The notes beneath the pieces are model-generated. The model made no database searches. It was not told the DNA's origin and saw nothing but the letters and a program-made list of their open reading frames with translations. 64,000 bases of DNA, from contig NZ_JAQUHV010000004.1 of the NCBI RefSeq assembly GCF_028681615.1, positions 62,001 through 126,000 of the forward strand, given 5' to 3'. Made by a program: the position numbers and the translations under genes. The DNA comes from Sulfuricurvum sp. (GTDB taxonomy: Bacteria > Campylobacterota > Campylobacteria > Campylobacterales > Sulfurimonadaceae). Positions 24,163 to 37,771 of the stretch are shown here, piece by piece (positions within the stretch are counted from its first letter, which is position 1; each line of letters opens with the position of its first letter).

Positions 24163-24609
24163 ATGAAAGTTTTATTGACAAAAGATGTCAAAGGAGTCGG
24201 AAAGACCGGCGAGATTAAAGATGTAGCGGATGGTTACGGTAAAAACTTTTTGATCGGAAAGGGATTAGCACTCGCTGCAACCCATGAAGTATTAAAAAAA
24301 TATGAGTCCGACCAACGAAAAAAAGCGGCTAATGAAGCAGCTGAAATCGAGCGCCTGACAGCAATCAAAAACCAACTCACTGATATAAAAGTGGTTATTA
24401 CGAAAAAGTTAGGCAATACCGGGCATCTTTTTGGTGCGGTAACCAAAGAAGAGATTTCCGATGCCCTTAAAGCACAACATAATATTGAAATCGATAAAAA
24501 AGAACTCGATGCAAAACATGGCATCAAAACAACCGGCTTACATGATCTTGACCTTAAACTTGGTCATGGTATTCATGCTACCCTTCATCTAGAGATCAAA
24601 GGTGAATAA
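24163..24609 (+). CDS. rplI: 50S ribosomal protein L9
   Basis: This 148-residue protein has the N-terminal L9 domain ([20 protein letters not shown], then [10 protein letters not shown]), a long connecting helix rich in Lys and Ala, and the C-terminal domain with [14 protein letters not shown]. It is normal in length for the family. Its last 8 bases overlap the GTG start of era. Confidence 0.97.
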
Positions 24610-25480
24610 GGCAGGCTTTGTTGCTCTCATTGGGCGTCCTAATGCCGGAAAAAGTACGCTTATGAACTGGATTTTGGGTGAAAAAATCGCCCTTGTCAGT
24701 CAAAAAGCAAATGCTACCCGAAGACGTTCCAATGCAATTGTTATGCATAAAGATGATCAAATTATTTTTGTCGACACTCCGGGTTTACATCAAGCAGAAA
24801 AACTCCTTAACCAATACATGCTGGAAGAAGCGTTAAAAGCAATCGGAGATTGTGATATTGTTGTTTATCTTGCTCCCGCATCCGATAAAACAATCCATTA
24901 TGAAAAGTTTCTTGAGCTCAATTCCGATAAACGTAAACACATCATTGTTTTGAGTAAAATAGATCAAATTTCTCAAGCTGAACTCCTTAAAAAAATTGGT
25001 GAGTATAATCGTTTCAGTGAACATTTTCTTGCACTTATCCCGATGTCAGTCACGAAAAATGTCGGGAAAGATGATTTATTAGATACGATTGCCAAGCATT
25101 TAGATGAATCTCCCTATCTGTATGATCCTGAAGACATGACAACTGAAAAAATGCGTGACATCTATAAAGAGTTCATTCGAGAAGCTATTTTTGACAACAT
25201 TAGTGATGAAATCCCTTACGAATCCGATGTTATTATCGATAAAATCGATGAAGATTCTCCAGTGGAACACATCCGAGCCACTATTATCGTAGAAAAAGAC
25301 TCCCAAAAAGGAATCATCATCGGTAAAGGGGGAGCTGCCATTAAACGTATCGGGAAAAACGCACGGGAAAAAATTGAGCGTCTTGCCTCAAAACCGGTCT
25401 ACTTAGAACTTTTCGTATCAGTTAAAAAAGGGTGGACAAGCGATAAAAAATTCTTAAGTGATTTAGGATATGAGTGGTAA
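24602..25480 (+). CDS. era: GTPase Era
   Basis: This 292-residue GTPase assists 16S rRNA and 30S maturation. The G domain has GRPNAGKST (11-19), VDTPG and SKID, and the C-terminal KH domain has [14 protein letters not shown]. It starts with GTG inside rplI, so the two genes are coupled. It is the last gene before a 415-base gap. Confidence 0.96.
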
Positions 25481-25783
25481 AAAACTCCCTTTCCAAACCC
25501 CCATTATCGGCACTTAAATATCTGCCGGTATTCTCAAATCTACAAACTAATTCAAAAAGCACCTAAAAGAATAGTTGCATTGTACGATGCTGTAACGATA
25601 AACAATAATTTTTGTCTAAATTGAGATCTTTTAAAAAACAGTTTAAGTTTGATTCCGCTACAATCGAAACGTAACGAATATAAATTCCCCCGTTATATAG
25701 GGAATGAACTGGAAATGAAACAAAAATATTATCTTTTTATCGGCGAAAAAAACTCAAAAAAATATCGTTCGCTACAGTTTTTT

Positions 25784-25813
25784 TTGTAACTGCCGATTTT
25801 AAGGTTATATAAT
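25784..25813 (+). promoter_or_regulatory. Candidate promoter of the Msh/Cts-like operon
   Basis: TTGTAA at 25784-25789 (4 of 6 matches to a -35 box) is followed after 18 bases by a perfect TATAAT at 25808-25813. The predicted leader of about 75 bases would contain the palindrome at 25850-25863 and ends with an AGAGG ribosome site before the ATG at 25896. Confidence 0.5.
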
Positions 25814-25849
25814 GATTAAGAGTCAATCGAATCGCATTTTACGAATAAA

Positions 25850-25863
25850 TCCGCAAATGCGGA
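25850..25863. promoter_or_regulatory. Perfect 14 bp palindrome in operon leader
   Basis: TCCGCAAATGCGGA is a perfect dyad about 37 bases downstream of the candidate -10 box and 33 bases before the first start codon. With only two central bases it suits a dimeric DNA-binding protein better than an RNA hairpin. No known regulator is recognised. Confidence 0.4.
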
Positions 25864-25895
25864 AGAGTTCTCGTACATTTTAAATAGGATAGAGG

Positions 25896-27434
25896 ATGAA
25901 TAAAAGTAAACAACAAACCTATTCAACCATCGTATCAGCCAACCCCTACAAAGGGGATTATTATGTTGGTACATATGATACGATATCTGAAATCACTTCC
26001 CCATCGTATAAAAAAGAGCAATATGTAACTTCTTTTTTAAATACTAAGGGGTTTATCACGACCCTTATCGGGATTAGTAAAAATATTCCTGATGATGATA
26101 TATATGATGCATTAGAAAATAAAGTTTATGAAGAGCTCGCTCTTGATATGGCAGTTGAATATCATATCAAATATGTTGAAGCGATTCATCGTAGCACAGA
26201 GGGGGAACGTTTTTTTCATGTATTTGTAGTTGATCCATTAACTCTCGAACAGGATTATACTTCCATTGTAGGTACACTTAAATATATTGATTTAATTGTA
26301 CCTGTCCCATTACTCATAAAATCCCTGTATGTTAAAGAGCTTATGCCTTCTTCAGAAGTTCACTGCTTTATCTATTTTCAAGAGAATGATGCTTTTTTTT
26401 GTATTTATAATGAGCAAGAGTTTGTTTATGCAAAATCACTAAAGTTTTCATTGAAGCAAATGCATGAACGTTTCTGCGAACTTCTTGGTGAACAGAGTGA
26501 TCTTGACACATTTGAAAGTATGATATCCAAAGAAGGTCTAAATACATCAAGCCCTGACTACCAAAAAAATCTCATCAAACTTTTTGGCGAAATTTTCCTT
26601 CATGTCAGCGATGTTATAACCTATGCAAAAAGAGCATACGATATCAAAAAGTTTGACGAAATTTTCATCGGTACAGCCGTAGGTAGTGTTATCGGCTTAG
26701 ATGAATATGCACAAACATATCTGGGCTTAAAAGCAACTCCTTTTGATTTCGATTATGGGTTCAATACCAATGGTGTTAAAGTAGATCAAATTCATCAATT
26801 ATTGCATCTCTATAGTCGATTAGAATCTGATGAGCGTTATCATTGTAATTTTACTATATTCCATCGTCCACCTCCGTTTGCTCAACGTGATAGTGGCAAG
26901 CTTTTATTAGTTACAGCTGCTTCATTAGCTGCTGCTCTTCTTTATCCAGGGGTGTACTGGGGACTTTCATATATTGAAGAACTTCACCATGCCATGTTAA
27001 CGAAAGAATACGAGCAAGTTCATATTGAAAAAATGACACGTGAAGCAACTATCAATTTAAAATTAGCCAACAAAAGTGCAGCTCAAGTTCTTTTAGATGA
27101 ACAGAAAAATTTATATAAGCAAAAACAGGATACATTGATACAAGTACATGAGAAAAAAGTTAATTATCCGATGAAATCAAAAATTATGGCTGATTTTACT
27201 CGAAGTTTTAATCAATACCGTGTACAACTCAAAAGTATCTCATATGAAGAAGATTTGAATAACACTAAAACCTTTACATTTGGTTTAACATCATCTACCA
27301 CACAGGATATAACTGCTCTTTTAAAACATTTGACAGACATCAAACGTGATAAGTATGATTTTAATCTCGAACTCATTTCTTATAATGAGGAAGAAAAATC
27401 TTATTTGAGTGAATTAAAGGCGGTAATCAAATGA
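25896..27434 (+). CDS. PilM/PilN-like assembly protein (MshI-like)
   Basis: This 512-residue protein has a cytoplasmic N-terminal part of about 330 residues that resembles an actin-like PilM/GspL fold in length and strand pattern (for example the DEIFIGTAVGSVIGL segment). One membrane helix at about 335-358 follows, then a coiled-coil and small periplasmic domain as in PilN. It looks like a PilM-PilN fusion and occupies the MshI place at the head of the operon. Sequence identity to known families is low, so the assignment rests on topology and context. Its stop overlaps the next ATG. Confidence 0.6.
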   Translation: MNKSKQQTYSTIVSANPYKGDYYVGTYDTISEITSPSYKKEQYVTSFLNTKGFITTLIGISKNIPDDDIYDALENKVYEELALDMAVEYHIKYVEAIHRSTEGERFFHVFVVDPLTLEQDYTSIVGTLKYIDLIVPVPLLIKSLYVKELMPSSEVHCFIYFQENDAFFCIYNEQEFVYAKSLKFSLKQMHERFCELLGEQSDLDTFESMISKEGLNTSSPDYQKNLIKLFGEIFLHVSDVITYAKRAYDIKKFDEIFIGTAVGSVIGLDEYAQTYLGLKATPFDFDYGFNTNGVKVDQIHQLLHLYSRLESDERYHCNFTIFHRPPPFAQRDSGKLLLVTAASLAAALLYPGVYWGLSYIEELHHAMLTKEYEQVHIEKMTREATINLKLANKSAAQVLLDEQKNLYKQKQDTLIQVHEKKVNYPMKSKIMADFTRSFNQYRVQLKSISYEEDLNNTKTFTFGLTSSTTQDITALLKHLTDIKRDKYDFNLELISYNEEEKSYLSELKAVIK

Positions 27435-28066
27435 AATTACAAATCGAAGACTACCTGTATTCAATAGATCAGTCTCTATCACAAAAAAGTGATCGTGATA
27501 AAATGATGTTGTATGTAATGATATTTGCATCATTATTTGCACTTTCTTATTTCTTATTTTGGGAAAGTTCAGAAGCAGATTTCAAAGTATCGCACGAAAA
27601 AGCACTTAAAGCCCAAAATGATTTAAATGCTGATAAAAGTTATTTAGTATCAAATCCACCGGAAAAAATCGTTCAGATAGAACAAGAAACAGTTGCTTTA
27701 GGTAAACAACATGCTCTTTATGTTCAATATAACACATATATTAAAGAACAATTGGAACAAATTTCATCTTTATATTATGATGAAAAAGTTTGGGGATCAT
27801 ATCTTGATTCTGTCTCACGGTATGCTCGAGTATATAATGTAAAATTAGCCAAATTCGGAAATAGGCTACAATCTGACAACAGCTCATTCGGACATGTATT
27901 GGATATTACAATCTCTTCGGAAGGGCCGTATAAAAATACTCTCAAATTCATTAATGCACTTGAGCAAAGTCAACTGGTTGTTGATCTCCATGATTTCAAA
28001 ATCGTTGCCGATGAAAAACTCAAAGGGGACTTGGATATCTCAGTATGGGGGATTGTAAGACAATGA
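27431..28066 (+). CDS. PilO/MshJ-like periplasmic assembly protein
   Basis: This 211-residue protein has one N-terminal membrane helix (about 25-44), a coiled-coil stretch at about 50-120 and a C-terminal alpha/beta domain, the layout of PilO, GspM and MshJ. In pilus and type II secretion machines such proteins form the alignment ring between the inner-membrane platform and the secretin. It overlaps the genes on both sides by 4 and 4 bases (ATGA), implying tight coupling. Confidence 0.65.
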   Translation: MKLQIEDYLYSIDQSLSQKSDRDKMMLYVMIFASLFALSYFLFWESSEADFKVSHEKALKAQNDLNADKSYLVSNPPEKIVQIEQETVALGKQHALYVQYNTYIKEQLEQISSLYYDEKVWGSYLDSVSRYARVYNVKLAKFGNRLQSDNSSFGHVLDITISSEGPYKNTLKFINALEQSQLVVDLHDFKIVADEKLKGDLDISVWGIVRQ

Positions 28067-28560
28067 AAAAATATATACTTTTAGGGCTTATAAGCTTTTC
28101 AGAACTCTTTGCTTCAATTGTTCCTGTAGGTGTGCCTAGCAACTCTGTAGTGCAACCTCAAGGAGATAAAGAACTAACGTGGGTTGATGAACAGATTCAA
28201 GCTATTTTACCTTCACGCATAGGTATTCCCGATGGATTCATCAATTCGCTTCGTGATCCAATGAAGATGAAGAAAGTTGCACCAACTCAAATAGCTGGTC
28301 ATCTTCTTGCCCCGCCTAAATTAGGTAGTATGGGAATCATGACTCCACCGAAAATCATTGAAGAGCCGCTACGACTTCAAGCTATTATGAATAAATCGGT
28401 GCTGATTACTGGAAAATGGTATAAAGTAAGTGATAAAGTACGTAATTTTACACTTCTTGAAATCAAACCAAATTCCGTTTTATTAGCGGACAAAAAAGAT
28501 CAAAAACTCATTTTGTTTTTAACAAAACAAAATAATAATATAAAAATCATCACCAAATAG
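28063..28560 (+). CDS. MshK/CtsR-like small periplasmic protein
   Basis: This protein has an N-terminal signal peptide (MKKYILLGLISFSELFAS) and 165 residues from the ATG at 28063, which overlaps the upstream TGA (ATGA) and has GGGGGA upstream. The alternative ATG at 28045 would prepend six residues to the signal peptide. The last ~60 residues (about GKWYKVSDKVRNFTLLEIK) look like a PilP/GspC/MshK-type beta domain that touches the secretin. It lies directly before the secretin gene, as mshK does before mshL and ctsR before ctsD. Confidence 0.6.
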   Translation: MKKYILLGLISFSELFASIVPVGVPSNSVVQPQGDKELTWVDEQIQAILPSRIGIPDGFINSLRDPMKMKKVAPTQIAGHLLAPPKLGSMGIMTPPKIIEEPLRLQAIMNKSVLITGKWYKVSDKVRNFTLLEIKPNSVLLADKKDQKLILFLTKQNNNIKIITK

Positions 28561-28569
28561 GAAAGTATC

Positions 28570-30159
28570 ATGACATCTGTAATTAAACACCATGCACGAG
28601 CGTTTATGTTATCCGTTGCCACCGCTGCCCTTCTCACACCTACAGTTCAGGCAGATTGTAAGTATGAGCTTTTCAATATTTCCTCAGCCAAGGGGACAAC
28701 TGTCGGAGAATTTGTTGATCAACTAAGTGACGAATGTGGTATGAGTCTAATTGTCACCGATGAACAAGCAGAAGAAATTCTCAAAAAACCAATGAATAAA
28801 ACATTCCTGAAAGACCTCACAATAAACGAAGTGTTAGATTTGATTATAAAAGAAAATAATCTGCAATACACCTTGCAGAACAATATTTTAAGAGTATCGT
28901 ATCTTACAACAAAAACCTATAATATTGATTACATTATTTCTCAACGTAAAGGGACTGGTAGTGCAAACATTACTTTAAGTTCAAATACTAGTACTTCTAG
29001 TACTCCAAGTACTAGTAGTAGCGGAGCTACCAGTACCAGTAGCAATGTAGGAGGCAATAGTGCTTCATCTCAATCTGGAATCAAAATAACATCATCAGAT
29101 GAAGTACAATTTTGGGAAACATTGGATAAAGATATTGAATCTGTCCTCAATAGACCTGAAGACACTTATAAGGCAACTATACCTTTAATTAATAAAAGTT
29201 CAGGTTTGATTACCGTAACAGCAACTGGTCCTCAACTCAAACGTTTAGATACTTATATTGATGATCTACAGAAAAAAATGCAAACTCAAGTACTTATAGA
29301 CGTCAAGATGTACAGTGTTGTTTTTTCAGATGCTTCTTCGACAGGTATAGATTGGTCGCAATTATATGCTCTTCAAAATATAGGATTAGGATTTAATACA
29401 TATAATACAAAGAACATAGGTGACTTCTCCGGTACAGCAAAAAATAATATTATAGTAGACAACACTACAGTAACAGCTGGGGCTGTCCCACGTAATATAG
29501 GAACTATTTTCCAACTAGGGGCCCAAGGTAGTTTAACTGAAGTAATAAAATTTCTTAAAACCCAAGGGGATGTTTATTCCATTTCAAACCCTAAAATTTT
29601 AACACTCAACAATCAACCGGCCCTTATTACATCTGGAACTGAGTTATTTTATAAAACAAAAAATACTTCAACACTTGCAGGTGGTACGACAGGTACACAA
29701 GCAACTACAGAAGTTGTAAGCTCCGTCTTCTCAGGAGTTCTACTCGATATAACTCCTGAAATATCAAGTGATGGAAGCATTACGCTACGTATTAATCCAT
29801 CTATATCTGAAACAGCCAGTACTGTTTCTATAGATAATGCTGCACGAACCATGCCTCCAGACTTAAGTCGTCGTCAAATGTCTTCGGTGATAACCGTTAA
29901 AGATGGAAATAGAGTTATCTTAGGTGGTTTAATCAATACAAAAAATGTCAATGATTCAAATAAAGTTCCACTATTAGGAGATATTCCATTCCTTGGATAT
30001 CTCTTTAAAAGAGAAGGGATTACGAAGAAAACAGAAGAAATTGTTATTATAATTGAGCCACATATTATCAAAAAAGAGAAAGATACACTTAGCTTAGGAG
30101 ATTTGGGCTATACACGTCTTGGGACTAAAATAGAAGAAGCAAAGCAGGAAAGTAAATAA
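28570..30159 (+). CDS. Secretin (MshL/CtsD/PulD family)
   Basis: This 529-residue outer-membrane channel protein has a signal peptide ending near TVQA (about residue 28), an N-terminal STN-like domain (about 30-110), a Ser/Thr/Gly-rich linker at about 130-170, an N1-like domain, and the secretin domain at about 310-505 with ITSGTELFYK-like gate strands and VILGGLINTKNVNDSNKVPLLGD. The last block is the characteristic secretin signature. Such multimers let pseudopili or DNA cross the outer membrane. No lipobox is evident. Confidence 0.85.
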   Translation: MTSVIKHHARAFMLSVATAALLTPTVQADCKYELFNISSAKGTTVGEFVDQLSDECGMSLIVTDEQAEEILKKPMNKTFLKDLTINEVLDLIIKENNLQYTLQNNILRVSYLTTKTYNIDYIISQRKGTGSANITLSSNTSTSSTPSTSSSGATSTSSNVGGNSASSQSGIKITSSDEVQFWETLDKDIESVLNRPEDTYKATIPLINKSSGLITVTATGPQLKRLDTYIDDLQKKMQTQVLIDVKMYSVVFSDASSTGIDWSQLYALQNIGLGFNTYNTKNIGDFSGTAKNNIIVDNTTVTAGAVPRNIGTIFQLGAQGSLTEVIKFLKTQGDVYSISNPKILTLNNQPALITSGTELFYKTKNTSTLAGGTTGTQATTEVVSSVFSGVLLDITPEISSDGSITLRINPSISETASTVSIDNAARTMPPDLSRRQMSSVITVKDGNRVILGGLINTKNVNDSNKVPLLGDIPFLGYLFKREGITKKTEEIVIIIEPHIIKKEKDTLSLGDLGYTRLGTKIEEAKQESK

Positions 30160-30162
30160 CGG

Positions 30163-30972
30163 ATGGAGAATTCCCTTTTCTCAAAGCCACGAGATCTGTT
30201 TTTGGACATAGTCAATCCTCGGGACTACGTCCAAATCGATAGTGTTTCTCATATGTATCAATCACTCAAAAATTCTGTTCAAAAACCTCTTAAAATGATC
30301 TTACTTTATGGTAGACCTGGAACGGGGAAAAGTATGTTGCTGCATAAGTTGCACCACGACCTTTCAAAGCATCAAAAAGTATTAATGTTATCTACACCGA
30401 TGATTGATGAAGATGATTTTTTACGAGTAATGGCACAAAATCTATTTGGCCATGCACCACGGGAAGTGATGACACTAAATCGATTTTTAGAAATTGCAGC
30501 TGCACTTTCATTAACAGATATCCCTATCGTTTTACTTGATGAAGCACAGCTCTATTCTCCTTCATTGATGGAAAAAATTCGCCTTATTTCAGATGCTAGA
30601 GCTATAAAATTCGTTATTACTCTTCATAAAACAGATAAAGAAGACATCATTGCTAAAGAGCATTTCCAGACACGTATTTGGGAAAGTATAGAACTCCAAA
30701 ATGCCACTTCTGATGAACTAAAAATATATATTCAGAAAAAACTTTTAAAATCCAATTGTTTTGACGTTGCCAATATGTTCAACGATAAAAACATGAAGCT
30801 TATTACCAATCTAACCAAAGGCAACTATCGGGAAACGAATAAGCTTCTTTTTTCACTGTTTAGTTTATATTGTTGGTATGAAGAAAATAATCCTACTGCA
30901 ATTAAATACAATTCAATAAAACCAAAATGGATTGAAATGGCCGCTATTCATACGGGACTGATTCATGCTTAA
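30163..30972 (+). CDS. ExeA/MshM-like AAA ATPase (CtsP-like)
   Basis: This 269-residue cytoplasmic ATPase has Walker A GRPGTGKS at 50-57 and Walker B VLLDEAQ at 123-129, the general form of ExeA/MshM and Campylobacter CtsP. ExeA proteins help to assemble the secretin through a peptidoglycan-binding partner, but no peptidoglycan-binding domain is seen here. It starts 3 bases after the secretin stop and overlaps the next gene. Confidence 0.75.
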   Translation: MENSLFSKPRDLFLDIVNPRDYVQIDSVSHMYQSLKNSVQKPLKMILLYGRPGTGKSMLLHKLHHDLSKHQKVLMLSTPMIDEDDFLRVMAQNLFGHAPREVMTLNRFLEIAAALSLTDIPIVLLDEAQLYSPSLMEKIRLISDARAIKFVITLHKTDKEDIIAKEHFQTRIWESIELQNATSDELKIYIQKKLLKSNCFDVANMFNDKNMKLITNLTKGNYRETNKLLFSLFSLYCWYEENNPTAIKYNSIKPKWIEMAAIHTGLIHA

Positions 30973-31732
30973 TATTAAAAATTTAGAACGTCGTTGGCTC
31001 AAGTATAAAATACTCTCCTACATGCCATATATTCTTGTATTTATGATATCTATCGTCTTAATAATTGGAATTTCTATTTGGAAGCACTTAGATCAAAGTG
31101 AAATTCAAGTAAATGACACTCACAAGCAATCAGTAATACCGGTTACAGTTGTTAAACCATCGATACAGCCAGTGATTCCGGAAGAAAATACGACTTTTCT
31201 CGAACCTTCAATGGATTTTATTCAATCCTTTCAAAGCGTCCCTGTATCAACTGAAACATCTGATCAGCAACGCTCCAATGTTATTACTAAACCTGTTCAG
31301 GCACATACTACCGCTGTACAAACTCCTAAAGTATTAACCGTTCCAGAGTATACACCTCCTTCCCAAGCCGCACCTGTAGTATCAAGCAACACGAACAATA
31401 ATCAATTAATTTCAATCAAAGTGGATGAATCAAAACTTGATATAACTAGTTTAGAAAGACGTTTTAAAGAGACTTCTAATGCGAATCTAGGTCTTTTCAT
31501 TGCACGTTACTATTATGAACATGGAAACTATGATGGCGCTTATAATTATGCTTTGAAAACAAATAATGCGAATAGTCGAATCGATGAAAGTTGGATTATA
31601 TTTGCAAAATCACTTGTTAAACTTGGTAAAACAGATCAAGCTAAAAAGACCCTGCAAGTCTATATTTCACAGTCTAATTCAGAAAATGCAAAAGGATTAT
31701 TAAATTCAATCGAAAATGGAAATTTTAAATGA
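30965..31732 (+). CDS. MshN/CtsX-like TPR membrane protein
   Basis: This 255-residue protein has a short cytoplasmic tail, one membrane helix at about 20-39, a Pro/Thr/Ser/Gln-rich periplasmic linker (about 50-150) and a C-terminal TPR-like helical region (about 170-250, ARYYYEHGNYDGAYNYALK). This is the plan of MshN and also fits the membrane protein CtsX encoded near ctsP in Campylobacter. It overlaps both neighbours by a few bases. Confidence 0.6.
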   Translation: MLNIKNLERRWLKYKILSYMPYILVFMISIVLIIGISIWKHLDQSEIQVNDTHKQSVIPVTVVKPSIQPVIPEENTTFLEPSMDFIQSFQSVPVSTETSDQQRSNVITKPVQAHTTAVQTPKVLTVPEYTPPSQAAPVVSSNTNNNQLISIKVDESKLDITSLERRFKETSNANLGLFIARYYYEHGNYDGAYNYALKTNNANSRIDESWIIFAKSLVKLGKTDQAKKTLQVYISQSNSENAKGLLNSIENGNFK

Positions 31733-32271
31733 AATTTTTTATTTTAGTTCTTCTTTTATTCTCAAACTATCTCTATGCAGATGTAAATCAAAAACTTTTT
31801 GAACTCTATCAAAAAGGGATGTATACAGAAGCATGTAATTACGGATATTCTTTTTTTGCGCGTAACGAGCACAATGAACCTTTTGTCTCATTAGTAGGCT
31901 TTGCATGTTTGAAAGCAGATCAAATTGATCGTCTCTCACCAGTAATGTCACAATTAACACAAACACCTGATGCAAGATCAAACAGTGCCTATTTTGCTCT
32001 AATTGTTATGCAAAAAAAACTTTTAATGCGTGCTTTGTATGATAATCAACCCATCCAAAATCTAAAATTTCCAACGAGCACGTACCTTCTTTCTAAAGTA
32101 TTTGATCTTTATGTACAAAATCCGAAAAAGAATGATACCATTAAAGAATATCAAGACCCAAGCAATTTAAGACAAAGTTATAAGCTCTATACCATACAGA
32201 TAAATGACCTAAAGAGCATCGCTATAGATGAATATTATGATAAAATATTAACTGTTCACCACGTATATTAA
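31729..32271 (+). CDS. Unrecognised periplasmic protein in the pilus operon
   Basis: This 180-residue protein has a clear signal peptide (MKFFILVLLLFSNYLYA) and an all-helical, TPR-like mature part (LFELYQKGMYTEACNYGYSFF). I do not recognise a family. Its ATG overlaps the upstream stop and it lies 14 bases before the ATPase gene, so it is part of the operon. The standard MSHA order has no extra gene here. A role as lipoprotein-like pilotin or periplasmic scaffold is possible but unproven; no lipobox is present. Confidence 0.65.
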   Translation: MKFFILVLLLFSNYLYADVNQKLFELYQKGMYTEACNYGYSFFARNEHNEPFVSLVGFACLKADQIDRLSPVMSQLTQTPDARSNSAYFALIVMQKKLLMRALYDNQPIQNLKFPTSTYLLSKVFDLYVQNPKKNDTIKEYQDPSNLRQSYKLYTIQINDLKSIAIDEYYDKILTVHHVY

Positions 32272-32285
32272 AAAGGAATTCAGAT

Positions 32286-34022
32286 ATGGATCGTATTACA
32301 CATGATTTGCTTGAAAAACGCCATATCACGCAGCAACAAATCGATCGATTAACGTCTCGTGGGGTTCAAGATGATACGGTATTAGAAACACTCACCAAAG
32401 TAGGTGCGGTGTCAATTAATTTTATTAAACGTTTTATTGTAGAACAAATCCGTCTTGGACGGTATGAACTCTCAATTATTAAAAATTACCATTTTTTAGA
32501 TGAAGTATCCATATTAACTCATTTGGCAGAAGTCATTGAAGTACCGTTTATAGATTTAGATTCCATTGATATGGACTACCGCCTAGTCGAAAAAATCCCA
32601 ACAACCCAATTTAAACGCTATAATGCACTTCCAATTTCCCAAGATGACATGTACGTAGTTGTAGCCTTTGCTGATCCCCTTAATCTTGAAGCGCAAGAAT
32701 CAATCCAACGACTTTTTCCAAGAAAATCAATTAAAATTGCTATTTCTACAGAAAAACAGATCCAAGCCTATTTATTCAAAATAGAACTAAAAGATAGTGT
32801 AAAAGAACTTGTTGCCAATATCCGAAATGAATTACGCAATATTGGAACAATTGAAGAACAGCAAGAAGCTTCTTCTATCTTGCAGCTCATTGATGTTATT
32901 CTTAAAGCCTGTATCAAGGGGCGTGCAAGTGATATTCACATTGAACCAACCGAAAAAAACTGTGTAGTACGCGGACGGATTGACGGGAAATTAGCTGAAA
33001 TCTTTATATTTGACCGAGATATATATCCTCCGTTAGCTTCACGTATTAAACTTTTGGCCAATCTTGATATTGCTGAACGACGAAAACCTCAGGATGGTCG
33101 TTTTTCTGCTATAGTTATGGATGCTGAATTTGATTTTCGTCTTTCCACCCTTCCCATTATCTATGGAGAATCCATTGTTATGCGTATATTGGACAAAACC
33201 AAGGCATTAGTAAAACTCGAGGATTCCGGAATGGATACAATAAGTTATCAAAAACTTCTGAAAGGTCTTCAGACACCATTTGGTATCATTCTTGTAACCG
33301 GTCCCACAGGAAGTGGTAAAACAACTACTTTGTATGGGGCACTCAATGAGCTCCGTAATGTAGAAGACAAAGTCATTACAGTAGAAGATCCTGTCGAATA
33401 TCGTATGAATTTGATTCAACAAGTTCAAGTAAACCCTAAAGTTGGTCTCTCATTTGCCGATGCACTTCGTTCTATTCTTCGCCAAGATCCTGATAAAATC
33501 ATGATTGGAGAGATTCGTGACCAAGAAACACTTGAAATTGCTATTAAAGCAGCCTTAACTGGACATCTGGTTATTTCAACACTTCATACAAATGATGCTA
33601 TTAGTGCCATCACCCGTATGGCAGATATGGGAATTGAGCCTTATCTTATCAGCGGTGCTCTCGTTGCAGTTCAAGCTCAGCGGCTTGTTCGCCGGATTTG
33701 CAATCACTGTAAAAAAGAAGTTGATATTCCCCAAAATCTTCTCCAAGAGTACAGTGCATTTATTCCGCCTCATACTGTTTTTTATGAAGGAGCAGGTTGT
33801 AAAGAGTGTAACGGTTCAGGATATATGGGTCGGGAAATGATTTGTGAGGTTTTACCAATTACTGAAGAATTAGCGAGTATGATAGCTCGGGGAGCTTCAA
33901 AAGATGATTTAACAAAAGAAGCAAAACGAGAAGGATTTGTAGGAATGTTTGAAAATGGAATGGCTAAAGCGGTTCATGGGATTACAACATTAGATGAAAT
34001 ATTAAGGGTGGCAAAAGGATGA
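32286..34022 (+). CDS. Type IV pilus/type II secretion assembly ATPase (MshE/CtsE)
   Basis: This 578-residue GspE-family ATPase has an N-terminal MshEN-like region (1-170, with an RLG at 56-58), Walker A GPTGSGKT at 339-346, the Asp box, Walker B-type PDKIMIGEIRD and the His box GHLVISTLHTND. A CxxC...CxxC zinc motif follows near residues 465-510. It powers pseudopilus polymerisation at the inner membrane. Its TGA overlaps the ATG of the platform gene. Confidence 0.92.
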   Translation: MDRITHDLLEKRHITQQQIDRLTSRGVQDDTVLETLTKVGAVSINFIKRFIVEQIRLGRYELSIIKNYHFLDEVSILTHLAEVIEVPFIDLDSIDMDYRLVEKIPTTQFKRYNALPISQDDMYVVVAFADPLNLEAQESIQRLFPRKSIKIAISTEKQIQAYLFKIELKDSVKELVANIRNELRNIGTIEEQQEASSILQLIDVILKACIKGRASDIHIEPTEKNCVVRGRIDGKLAEIFIFDRDIYPPLASRIKLLANLDIAERRKPQDGRFSAIVMDAEFDFRLSTLPIIYGESIVMRILDKTKALVKLEDSGMDTISYQKLLKGLQTPFGIILVTGPTGSGKTTTLYGALNELRNVEDKVITVEDPVEYRMNLIQQVQVNPKVGLSFADALRSILRQDPDKIMIGEIRDQETLEIAIKAALTGHLVISTLHTNDAISAITRMADMGIEPYLISGALVAVQAQRLVRRICNHCKKEVDIPQNLLQEYSAFIPPHTVFYEGAGCKECNGSGYMGREMICEVLPITEELASMIARGASKDDLTKEAKREGFVGMFENGMAKAVHGITTLDEILRVAKG

Positions 34023-35266
34023 AATACTTCATAGCAACAATACTTACAAAAGGTAAAAAAGTTGAACATGGTTTTTATGCTGAAAATAAAAAAGAAGCTC
34101 ACTATTTAGCAAAAATAAAATTCTCAGGAATGATTTTAAAAATGGCTGAATCGTCTCCGCCTTTTAAGGATCAACTTCGTCATTTTAAAGAGAGTTTATT
34201 TGCAAATATTAAAAAACGAAAACTTAAACAAGACTCTTTAATTGCATCCATCCGCCAACTAGCTGTCATGGCAAATGCCGGTATTTCGATTCATGATTCA
34301 TTAAAAGAAATTGCTGATGCCACAACAGACAAGACCTTACAAATTGTATTAGGAACATTGGCAGATGATATCAATTCAGGACATAGTCTCTCTCACTCTG
34401 CACGTAAGTTTTCATTTGAACTAGGTAATCTTTCTCTAGCAATGATCGAATTGGGAGAAAAGACGGGTAATATGGCCGAAGCACTTCATAAACTTGCTGA
34501 TATGCTAGAAGAAATTCGTCGTAATATAATAAAGTTTAAAAAAGCAATGGCATATCCTCGGAATGTTATGATTGCAATGGCAATTGCATTTACGGTTCTA
34601 ATATCCTATGTTGTTCCACAATTTAAAACTATTTTTGAACAGCTGCATGCTGAGCTACCACTTCCAACTAAAATTCTTTTGTTTTTAGAACATCTTTTTA
34701 ATACATATGGTCTATACGTTGTTGCATTTATTTTTATTTTTATTTTTACCTTTAAATACATGATAGATCATTATAGAGATTTTAGATACAAATGGCACGT
34801 TTTTTTATTACATGTTTATCTGATTAAAAATATTATTATGTATGCAACACTAAATAGATTTACATTAGTTTTTGCAGAACTTGTTCGTGCTGGTATTCCC
34901 ATTGCAGAAGCACTTGAAACCTCAATTGCCATGATTGATAGTCTCCCGTTGCAAGAACGTTTATATACAGTTCGCTCAACTGTTGAAAAAGGGGGAACCC
35001 TCCATAACGGTTTGGCTGAAACAGGACTTTTTGAAAATATGATTATTCAAATGATTTCTGCCGGTGAATCAAGCGGTCAACTTGATGCGATGATGCAAAA
35101 AGTTATGGAATATTATAAAATGCGCTTTGATGCAATTATTGATGGTCTATCAGAAGCGATTGAGCCTATTATGCTACTTATGATTGCATGTATGGTCGTT
35201 TTGCTTGCATTAGGTATTTTCTTGCCAATGTGGGAAATGGGCAATGCCGTTCAAGGACGACGCTAA
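34019..35266 (+). CDS. Inner-membrane platform protein (GspF/PilC/MshG/CtsF)
   Basis: This 415-residue protein has the tandem T2SSF domains and three membrane helices at about 180-200, 220-245 and 378-402. Family motifs include RQLAVMANAGISIHDSLKEI in the first repeat and FAELVRAGIPIAEALE in the second. It anchors the ATPase and pseudopilin assembly. It ends the operon; no pilin, prepilin peptidase or minor pilin gene follows. Confidence 0.92.
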   Translation: MKYFIATILTKGKKVEHGFYAENKKEAHYLAKIKFSGMILKMAESSPPFKDQLRHFKESLFANIKKRKLKQDSLIASIRQLAVMANAGISIHDSLKEIADATTDKTLQIVLGTLADDINSGHSLSHSARKFSFELGNLSLAMIELGEKTGNMAEALHKLADMLEEIRRNIIKFKKAMAYPRNVMIAMAIAFTVLISYVVPQFKTIFEQLHAELPLPTKILLFLEHLFNTYGLYVVAFIFIFIFTFKYMIDHYRDFRYKWHVFLLHVYLIKNIIMYATLNRFTLVFAELVRAGIPIAEALETSIAMIDSLPLQERLYTVRSTVEKGGTLHNGLAETGLFENMIIQMISAGESSGQLDAMMQKVMEYYKMRFDAIIDGLSEAIEPIMLLMIACMVVLLALGIFLPMWEMGNAVQGRR

Positions 35267-37390: not shown

Positions 37391-37771
37391 TTATGATTTA
37401 AAATTTTTGATCGGTTCTGCTAATCCGAAACCGGGATGATTTTTCACATCCAATACCGCTTGAGCCATAGTCGCATTGTCTTGATTAAAAATAAGCGGAG
37501 CAATGAAGTTAATACACGATTCATCGAGCGGGTCTTGAATAACTGCGATATTATATACAACTACCTTGGAATTTTCATTAATATCCAATAATACACGAAT
37601 ACTCGTAGGCAAATCAAACGAATATTCGCGTAACGCATAAGGATTTACCACAGTAAAACTGACACCTCCATCACAACCTCTAAGAGTTGCGAACAACTCA
37701 TCAATCTCATGCAACTCCACACATTGAATATTCTCAAAGCCTAATATAGTCGATTTCACTTCATATTGCAT
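37391..37771 (-). CDS. fliW: Flagellar assembly factor FliW
   Basis: This 126-residue beta-rich protein has the family block LGFENIQCVELHEIDELFATL and the C-terminal NFIAPLIFN. FliW binds flagellin and antagonises the translational repressor CsrA, so flagellin level controls its own translation. It stands upstream of uvrD, transcribed in the same direction, and is divergent from valS. Confidence 0.9.
   Translation of the reverse strand: MQYEVKSTILGFENIQCVELHEIDELFATLRGCDGGVSFTVVNPYALREYSFDLPTSIRVLLDINENSKVVVYNIAVIQDPLDESCINFIAPLIFNQDNATMAQAVLDVKNHPGFGLAEPIKNFKS

Follow-up and report, generated by a model that had tools for sequence, protein, structure and literature searches.

The stretch of DNA analysed here (the window; 64,000 nucleotides) comes from contig C4 of a genome of 2.66 Mb whose nearest named relatives are Sulfuricurvum species (W5 identity up to 95%). 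Nine open reading frames, W1 to W9, run along a single strand from 25896 to 35266, and we refer to them as operon A. The initial annotation had described this run as richer in AT than its neighbours and had seen neither a pilin nor a prepilin peptidase nearby. An ORF check placed all nine frames at the coordinates given below, with junctions of -4, -22, +9, +3, -8, -4, +14 and -4 bases in order, and GC content was 0.346 as opposed to 0.416 for the remainder of the window. No prepilin peptidase is encoded in the operon, nor is a pilin, and 48 long named loci of the same type also proved pilin-free in and about 20 kb around the operon.

W1 (25896–27434, +) is MshI-like and had no Pfam match. Its AlphaFold model (pLDDT 84.8) contains a helix at residues 333–440 followed by a small alpha-beta end, and the best match to its fold was Pseudomonas aeruginosa PilM (5eoy; Foldseek E 1.6e-13, probability 1.00). 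On this model, W1 is a predicted PilM–PilN fusion, in which an actin-like PilM is joined through a transmembrane/coiled-coil segment to a PilN-like domain. W2 (27431–28066, +) is assigned as an MshJ/PilO-like inner-membrane protein by its position and by weak Pfam matches, both below cut-off (PilO, E 0.0038; T2SSM, E 0.016). W3 (28045–28560, +) is MshK/PilP-like (34% identity over 74 aa with the MshK of the same genome) and the positional counterpart of CtsR, whose place in one cts locus (L089) holds a W3-like protein. The outer-membrane secretin, W4 (28570–30159, +; Pfam Secretin, E 1.2e-45), is of the MshL/CtsD type and passes the NCBIfam MshL equivalog cut-off (267.4 versus 250.2 bits). W5 (30163–30972, +) is an ExeA/MshM-type AAA ATPase and CtsP counterpart, as judged from AAA_22 (E 2.1e-12), a phylum survey and a tree. 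W6 (30965–31732, +) is a single-pass membrane protein with C-terminal TPRs (ANAPC3/TPR, E 2.3e-7) in the MshN/CtsX position, an assignment supported by the resemblance of C. jejuni-group CtsX to the MshN of the Sulfuricurvum genome. W7 (31729–32271, +) is an exported protein, modelled as TPR-like helices plus a beta meander (AlphaFold pLDDT 93.1), that had no PDB match at E<0.001 and is absent at the cts locus and from several families. The operon ends with W8 (32286–34022, +), a GspE/MshE/CtsE-type assembly ATPase (T2SSE, E 1.4e-129) with an MshEN domain and degenerate c-di-GMP motifs, and W9 (34019–35266, +), a GspF/MshG/CtsF-type inner-membrane platform (T2SSF, E 4.5e-49).

Upstream of the operon stands the gene for the era GTPase (24602–25480, +), a conserved neighbour that marks the usual location of A operons, which follow hslV-hslU-era in most genomes. 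The nine-gene order is kept across many genera, which rules out chance. AT-richness was considered as a mark of recent transfer and rejected, because the A operons of relatives show a GC dip of 1–10 points as well. The missing adjacent pilin, together with a broken gene at 25505–25884, could suggest that operon A is a degenerate or inactive remnant; however, its nine frames are all open and overlap, and they are conserved throughout the order, and we find this reading scarcely credible. The broken gene, between era and W1, is what is left of a carboxypeptidase-like gene of about 430 aa that is intact in relatives, where it is accompanied by a gene of 316 aa with an L,D-transpeptidase fold; a second copy of the 430-aa gene was not found in this Sulfuricurvum genome. 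We take the two genes to resemble the cell-shape genes Pgp1/Csd4 and Pgp2/Csd6. Five regex matches to the pilin motif near named A operons turned out to be carboxypeptidases. Just downstream of operon A, beyond uvrD, lies fliW (37391–37771, −), which in Campylobacter relatives instead flanks a minor-pilin cluster (Q-D-O-P or ctsT).

The genome encodes three filament machines: operon A, an Msh operon with pilins (operon B, L027) and a type II secretion system (T2SS; L026, contig C6). Operon B, at C2:93–107 kb, starts with Q (LamG-containing), D, O, P and C pilins and continues with I-J-K-L-M-N-E-G. The latter order had also been proposed for operon A, and synteny and phylogeny bore it out as I-J-K-L-M-N-(W7)-E-G, so that mshE, mshG, mshL and mshM stand together in the window. 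An ordinary msh arrangement with adjacent pilins, which the initial annotation had named as evidence against its reading, does occur in this genome, but at the paralogue B and not at A. Operon A shares with Vibrio msh and with operon B its gene order, an MshL-type secretin and a locus free of any prepilin peptidase. A and B differ in that B has the Q-D-O-P-C pilins alongside and canonical c-di-GMP motifs in its MshE, and A has neither; the B operons of relatives carry two major pilins beside them. Denise et al. found a prepilin peptidase in no MSH locus (PMC6668835), so its absence from operon A is not odd. The initial annotation had suggested that the pilins might be encoded elsewhere. In line with this, we found 15 prepilin-like genes (N-methylation matches) and a sole prepilin peptidase (C3:209.8 kb), all outside operon A, and no mshA pilin adjoins it; two PilT-type ATPases are also present. 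Two additional major-pilin-like genes (L028 6352–7328), between glnA and pckA, we assign to none of the three machines.

The T2SS shares a homologous secretin, GspE and GspF with operon A, and the C. jejuni Cts machine was first described as type II secretion-like, according to the title of a paper cited in PMC10046745. A role of operon A in protein secretion is nevertheless very improbable, given that a distinct T2SS, with pseudopilins of its own, is encoded in this genome. GspG–K are present at L026 and absent from the A locus; the T2SS operon has neither ExeA/MshM nor a PilM–N fusion, it is more distant in sequence, and the secretin and ATPase of operon A are closer to Msh-type than to T2SS-type proteins.

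In Vibrio cholerae MshE, c-di-GMP is bound by two RLG...Q motifs of 24 residues each (PMC5013675). In all 14 ATPases of B operons, the key glycine and glutamine are present in both motifs, although in one ATPase the first R is replaced by H. By contrast, 30 of 33 A ATPases have lost both MshEN motifs, two keep both and one more keeps motif I. W8 has lost both, as have all three cts ATPases. Most A ATPases have probably lost c-di-GMP binding, as judged from these motifs. This bears on the possibility that operon A is an ordinary MSH machine whose pilins merely lie elsewhere, a reading encouraged by its gene order, by the MshL equivalog and by Denise et al., who report MSH in Epsilonproteobacteria and permit mshA as a loner (PMC6668835). 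Yet the same genome has operon B, with Q-D-O-P-C pilins, the I-to-G genes and intact c-di-GMP motifs, and A and B fall into distinct clades. Operon B, with its own pilins and intact motifs, is the true MSH of the genome, and we consider it improbable that operon A is another. The B secretin (L027 9573–11090) fails the MshL equivalog (225.4 bits; cut-off 250.2); the equivalog therefore accepts the secretin of the pilin-less operon and not that of the pilin-bearing one, and automatic naming indicates the wrong operon.

A search of 249 Campylobacterota genomes returned ExeA relatives in 137 of them, from 35 of 55 genera. The loci that we read were mostly of two kinds, A without an adjacent pilin and B with pilins. 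Operon A is conserved across Campylobacterota, and A and B are distinct clades and ancient paralogues. Among the variants, one family (three loci) has A without E and G, with HDOD and RNase R genes following instead, and two genomes of this type (G028 and G006) additionally hold a complete B operon; another family lacks an adjacent platform gene. In a further family (four loci), nothing of the machine is left but an orphan gene for an ExeA-type ATPase; at the two of these loci that were read (L095 and L120), genes for an SH3-type protein and aroE come next. Arcobacteraceae-like genomes carry an extra M-N-W7 mini-cluster beside uvrD (L108 and L115), distant from the A operon (family names of the compared genomes are putative throughout).

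The last part of the operon had been equated with Campylobacter ctsR-D-P-X-E-F, and both synteny and phylogeny support this. Three genomes of one Campylobacteraceae genus have the order rplM-rpsI-cadF-(hydrolase)-nifJ-ctsR-D-P-X-E-F (L088–L090), and the rplM-rpsI-cadF-nifJ context, which we take to be that of the C. jejuni map, identifies these loci as cts. In G102, CtsP (202 aa), CtsX (195 aa), CtsE (519 aa), CtsG (171 aa), CtsT (100 aa) and ProC (243 aa) equal the published C. jejuni lengths (PMC8308473). As single-gene GspE and ExeA trees left the position of cts unresolved, we concatenated secretin, ExeA, ATPase and platform from 47 operons. In this tree, C. jejuni-group cts falls inside A, within the Campylobacteraceae A operons (SH-aLRT 100), and AU tests rejected both its grouping with B (p 0.0046) and its placement outside A (p 0.0046). 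Because cts forms a long branch (stem 1.46), its placement leans also on complementary distribution and shared gene order; the ExeA survey gave no second, B-type match in the sampled Campylobacteraceae genomes. The two machines have in common the core L-M-N-E-G, including orthologous secretin, ExeA ATPase, GspE and GspF, as well as a positional K and the absence of adjacent pilins. They differ in that operon A keeps the PilM–N, PilO-like (W1, W2) and W7 genes, which the cts locus lacks, and sits at hslU-era, whereas the cts locus adjoins nifJ. Gene order and the tree make operon A a full-length orthologue of Cts, the reduced machine of C. jejuni.

The pilins served by such a machine can be read from genomes with a single assembly-type ATPase, that of A/cts. 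These are G139; G102, G147 and G078 of the C. jejuni group; and five from Campylobacteraceae (G215, G104, G142, G205 and G160). Each has 3–9 prepilins, which the A/cts machine must therefore serve. Pilin genes recur at three places: upstream of priA; in a Q-D-O-P cluster beside hpf (with recG in many genomes and fliW in Campylobacter); and, as a FimT-like singleton, next to a glycosyltransferase gene. All three are present in the Sulfuricurvum genome (L028, L029 and L030), so that the pilins encoded elsewhere can be assigned to conserved, named locations. At matching places, the C. jejuni group has a pilin in the Cj0683 position (145 aa in G102) and fliW-proC-ctsT-Cj1078-Cj1079, and its CtsG adjoins tsaD. 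Like Cts, then, operon A goes with unlinked pilins at the same kinds of places (priA and the fliW/Q-D-O-P region), one of them upstream of priA.

When compared outside the N-terminal motif, the third priA pilin of the Sulfuricurvum genome resembles its counterparts from other families at E 4e-27 to 4e-6 and a single C. jejuni-group counterpart at E 7e-4; the Cj0683-position protein of G102 links back through the same pilin set (E 6e-5). The direct match to the C. jejuni group is weak, and the suggested link is partly by position. Efficient DNA uptake depends on Cj0683, for which a two-hybrid assay showed interaction with CtsE, and Golz et al. reported no homologue outside Campylobacter (PMC10046745).

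The Sulfuricurvum priA pilin cluster continues into priA-ispG-dnaB-comEC, and its ComEC is readily recognized (Pfam E 2.9e-19). Since ComEC is near-universal (248 of 249 genomes), we rejected its presence as a discriminating marker. As to position, comEC and a pilin cluster are no more than 8.5 kb apart in nine of ten genomes for which both coordinates were listed, against 0.38 expected, a count to which we attach no formal probability because the genomes are related.

This location weighs on whether operon A mainly builds an adhesion or twitching pilus, with Q as tip adhesin and PilT for retraction, DNA uptake being confined to the C. jejuni lineage. Q-D-O-P is kept in most A genomes, with Q lost in the C. 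jejuni group; the Sulfuricurvum Q is a large protein with Calx-beta/Ig domains. PilT homologues are likewise present in A-only genomes outside the C. jejuni group, as in most A genomes, and G102, G147 and G078 have none. In addition, C. ureolyticus, whose annotation includes MshL/MshM and pili, is said to move by type IV pili (PMC3758288). However, in the majority of the genomes tested the pilin genes are grouped with comEC, most A operons no longer have the c-di-GMP adhesion switch, and Aliarcobacter butzleri is naturally transformable (PMC8308473), with A operons carried by Arcobacteraceae-like genomes (family inferred). We therefore regard a mainly adhesive or twitching pilus as unlikely. 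The two roles are not mutually exclusive, and the presence of Q and PilT in genomes other than those of the C. jejuni group is also compatible with adhesion or twitching, which may be an additional role.

Given the observed gene content, cts orthology, pilin places, single ATPase of A-only genomes and loss of c-di-GMP motifs, we think it likely that operon A, as an Msh-derived paralogue and full-length Cts orthologue, encodes the trans-envelope core motor (cytoplasmic ring and ATPase, platform, alignment complex, secretin and ExeA-type ATPase) of a type IV pilus whose chief conserved task is DNA capture for natural transformation. The pilus is probably retractable and perhaps adhesive besides. 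In such a machine, pilins processed by the sole prepilin peptidase would be polymerised by W8 and W9, and W1–W3 would keep the inner membrane and the secretin W4 in alignment; W5 and W6 probably handle secretin or peptidoglycan, as suggested by the ExeA family. Filament subunits would come from three unlinked places, namely the pilins before priA, Q-D-O-P beside hpf/recG and the FimT-like singleton. In Sulfuricurvum, which keeps Q and PilT homologues, the fibre assembled by operon A from these pilins would bind DNA and may be retracted by PilT homologues, drawing DNA through the secretin to ComEC for transformation. As Sulfuricurvum also has operon B and a T2SS, some pilins could be shared between machines.

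As to origins, we lean slightly towards a duplication of an Msh-type adhesion machine in early Campylobacterota, after which one copy shed its linked pilins and, mostly, its c-di-GMP switch to become an order-wide DNA-uptake pilus. Cts would then be a stripped end state without PilM–N, PilO, Q and a retraction ATPase.

Cts in C. jejuni and MSH systems in Epsilonproteobacteria (PMC6668835) are already known. In the literature that we searched, which was partial and included few subscription journals, we found neither Cts described as a reduced orthologue of a pilin-less Msh paralogue nor the dispersed pilin assignment, and nothing on point on an Msh–Cts link or on Sulfuricurvum competence. A. 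butzleri is transformable and was reported to lack ctsP, ctsX, ctsR and ctsT (PMC8308473), yet four Arcobacteraceae-like A operons (L077–L080) have M and N at the expected places. Published absences, such as that of ctsP and ctsX from Arcobacter or a Cj0683 unique to Campylobacter, look like limits of BLAST when set against these sequences, and divergence may underlie all four absences reported for A. butzleri as well as the apparent uniqueness of Cj0683. If correct, this reading would provide an evolutionary origin for the competence machine of C. jejuni, identify in environmental relatives the parts that it lacks and its partner pilins, and offer an example of a pilus motor leaving second-messenger control.
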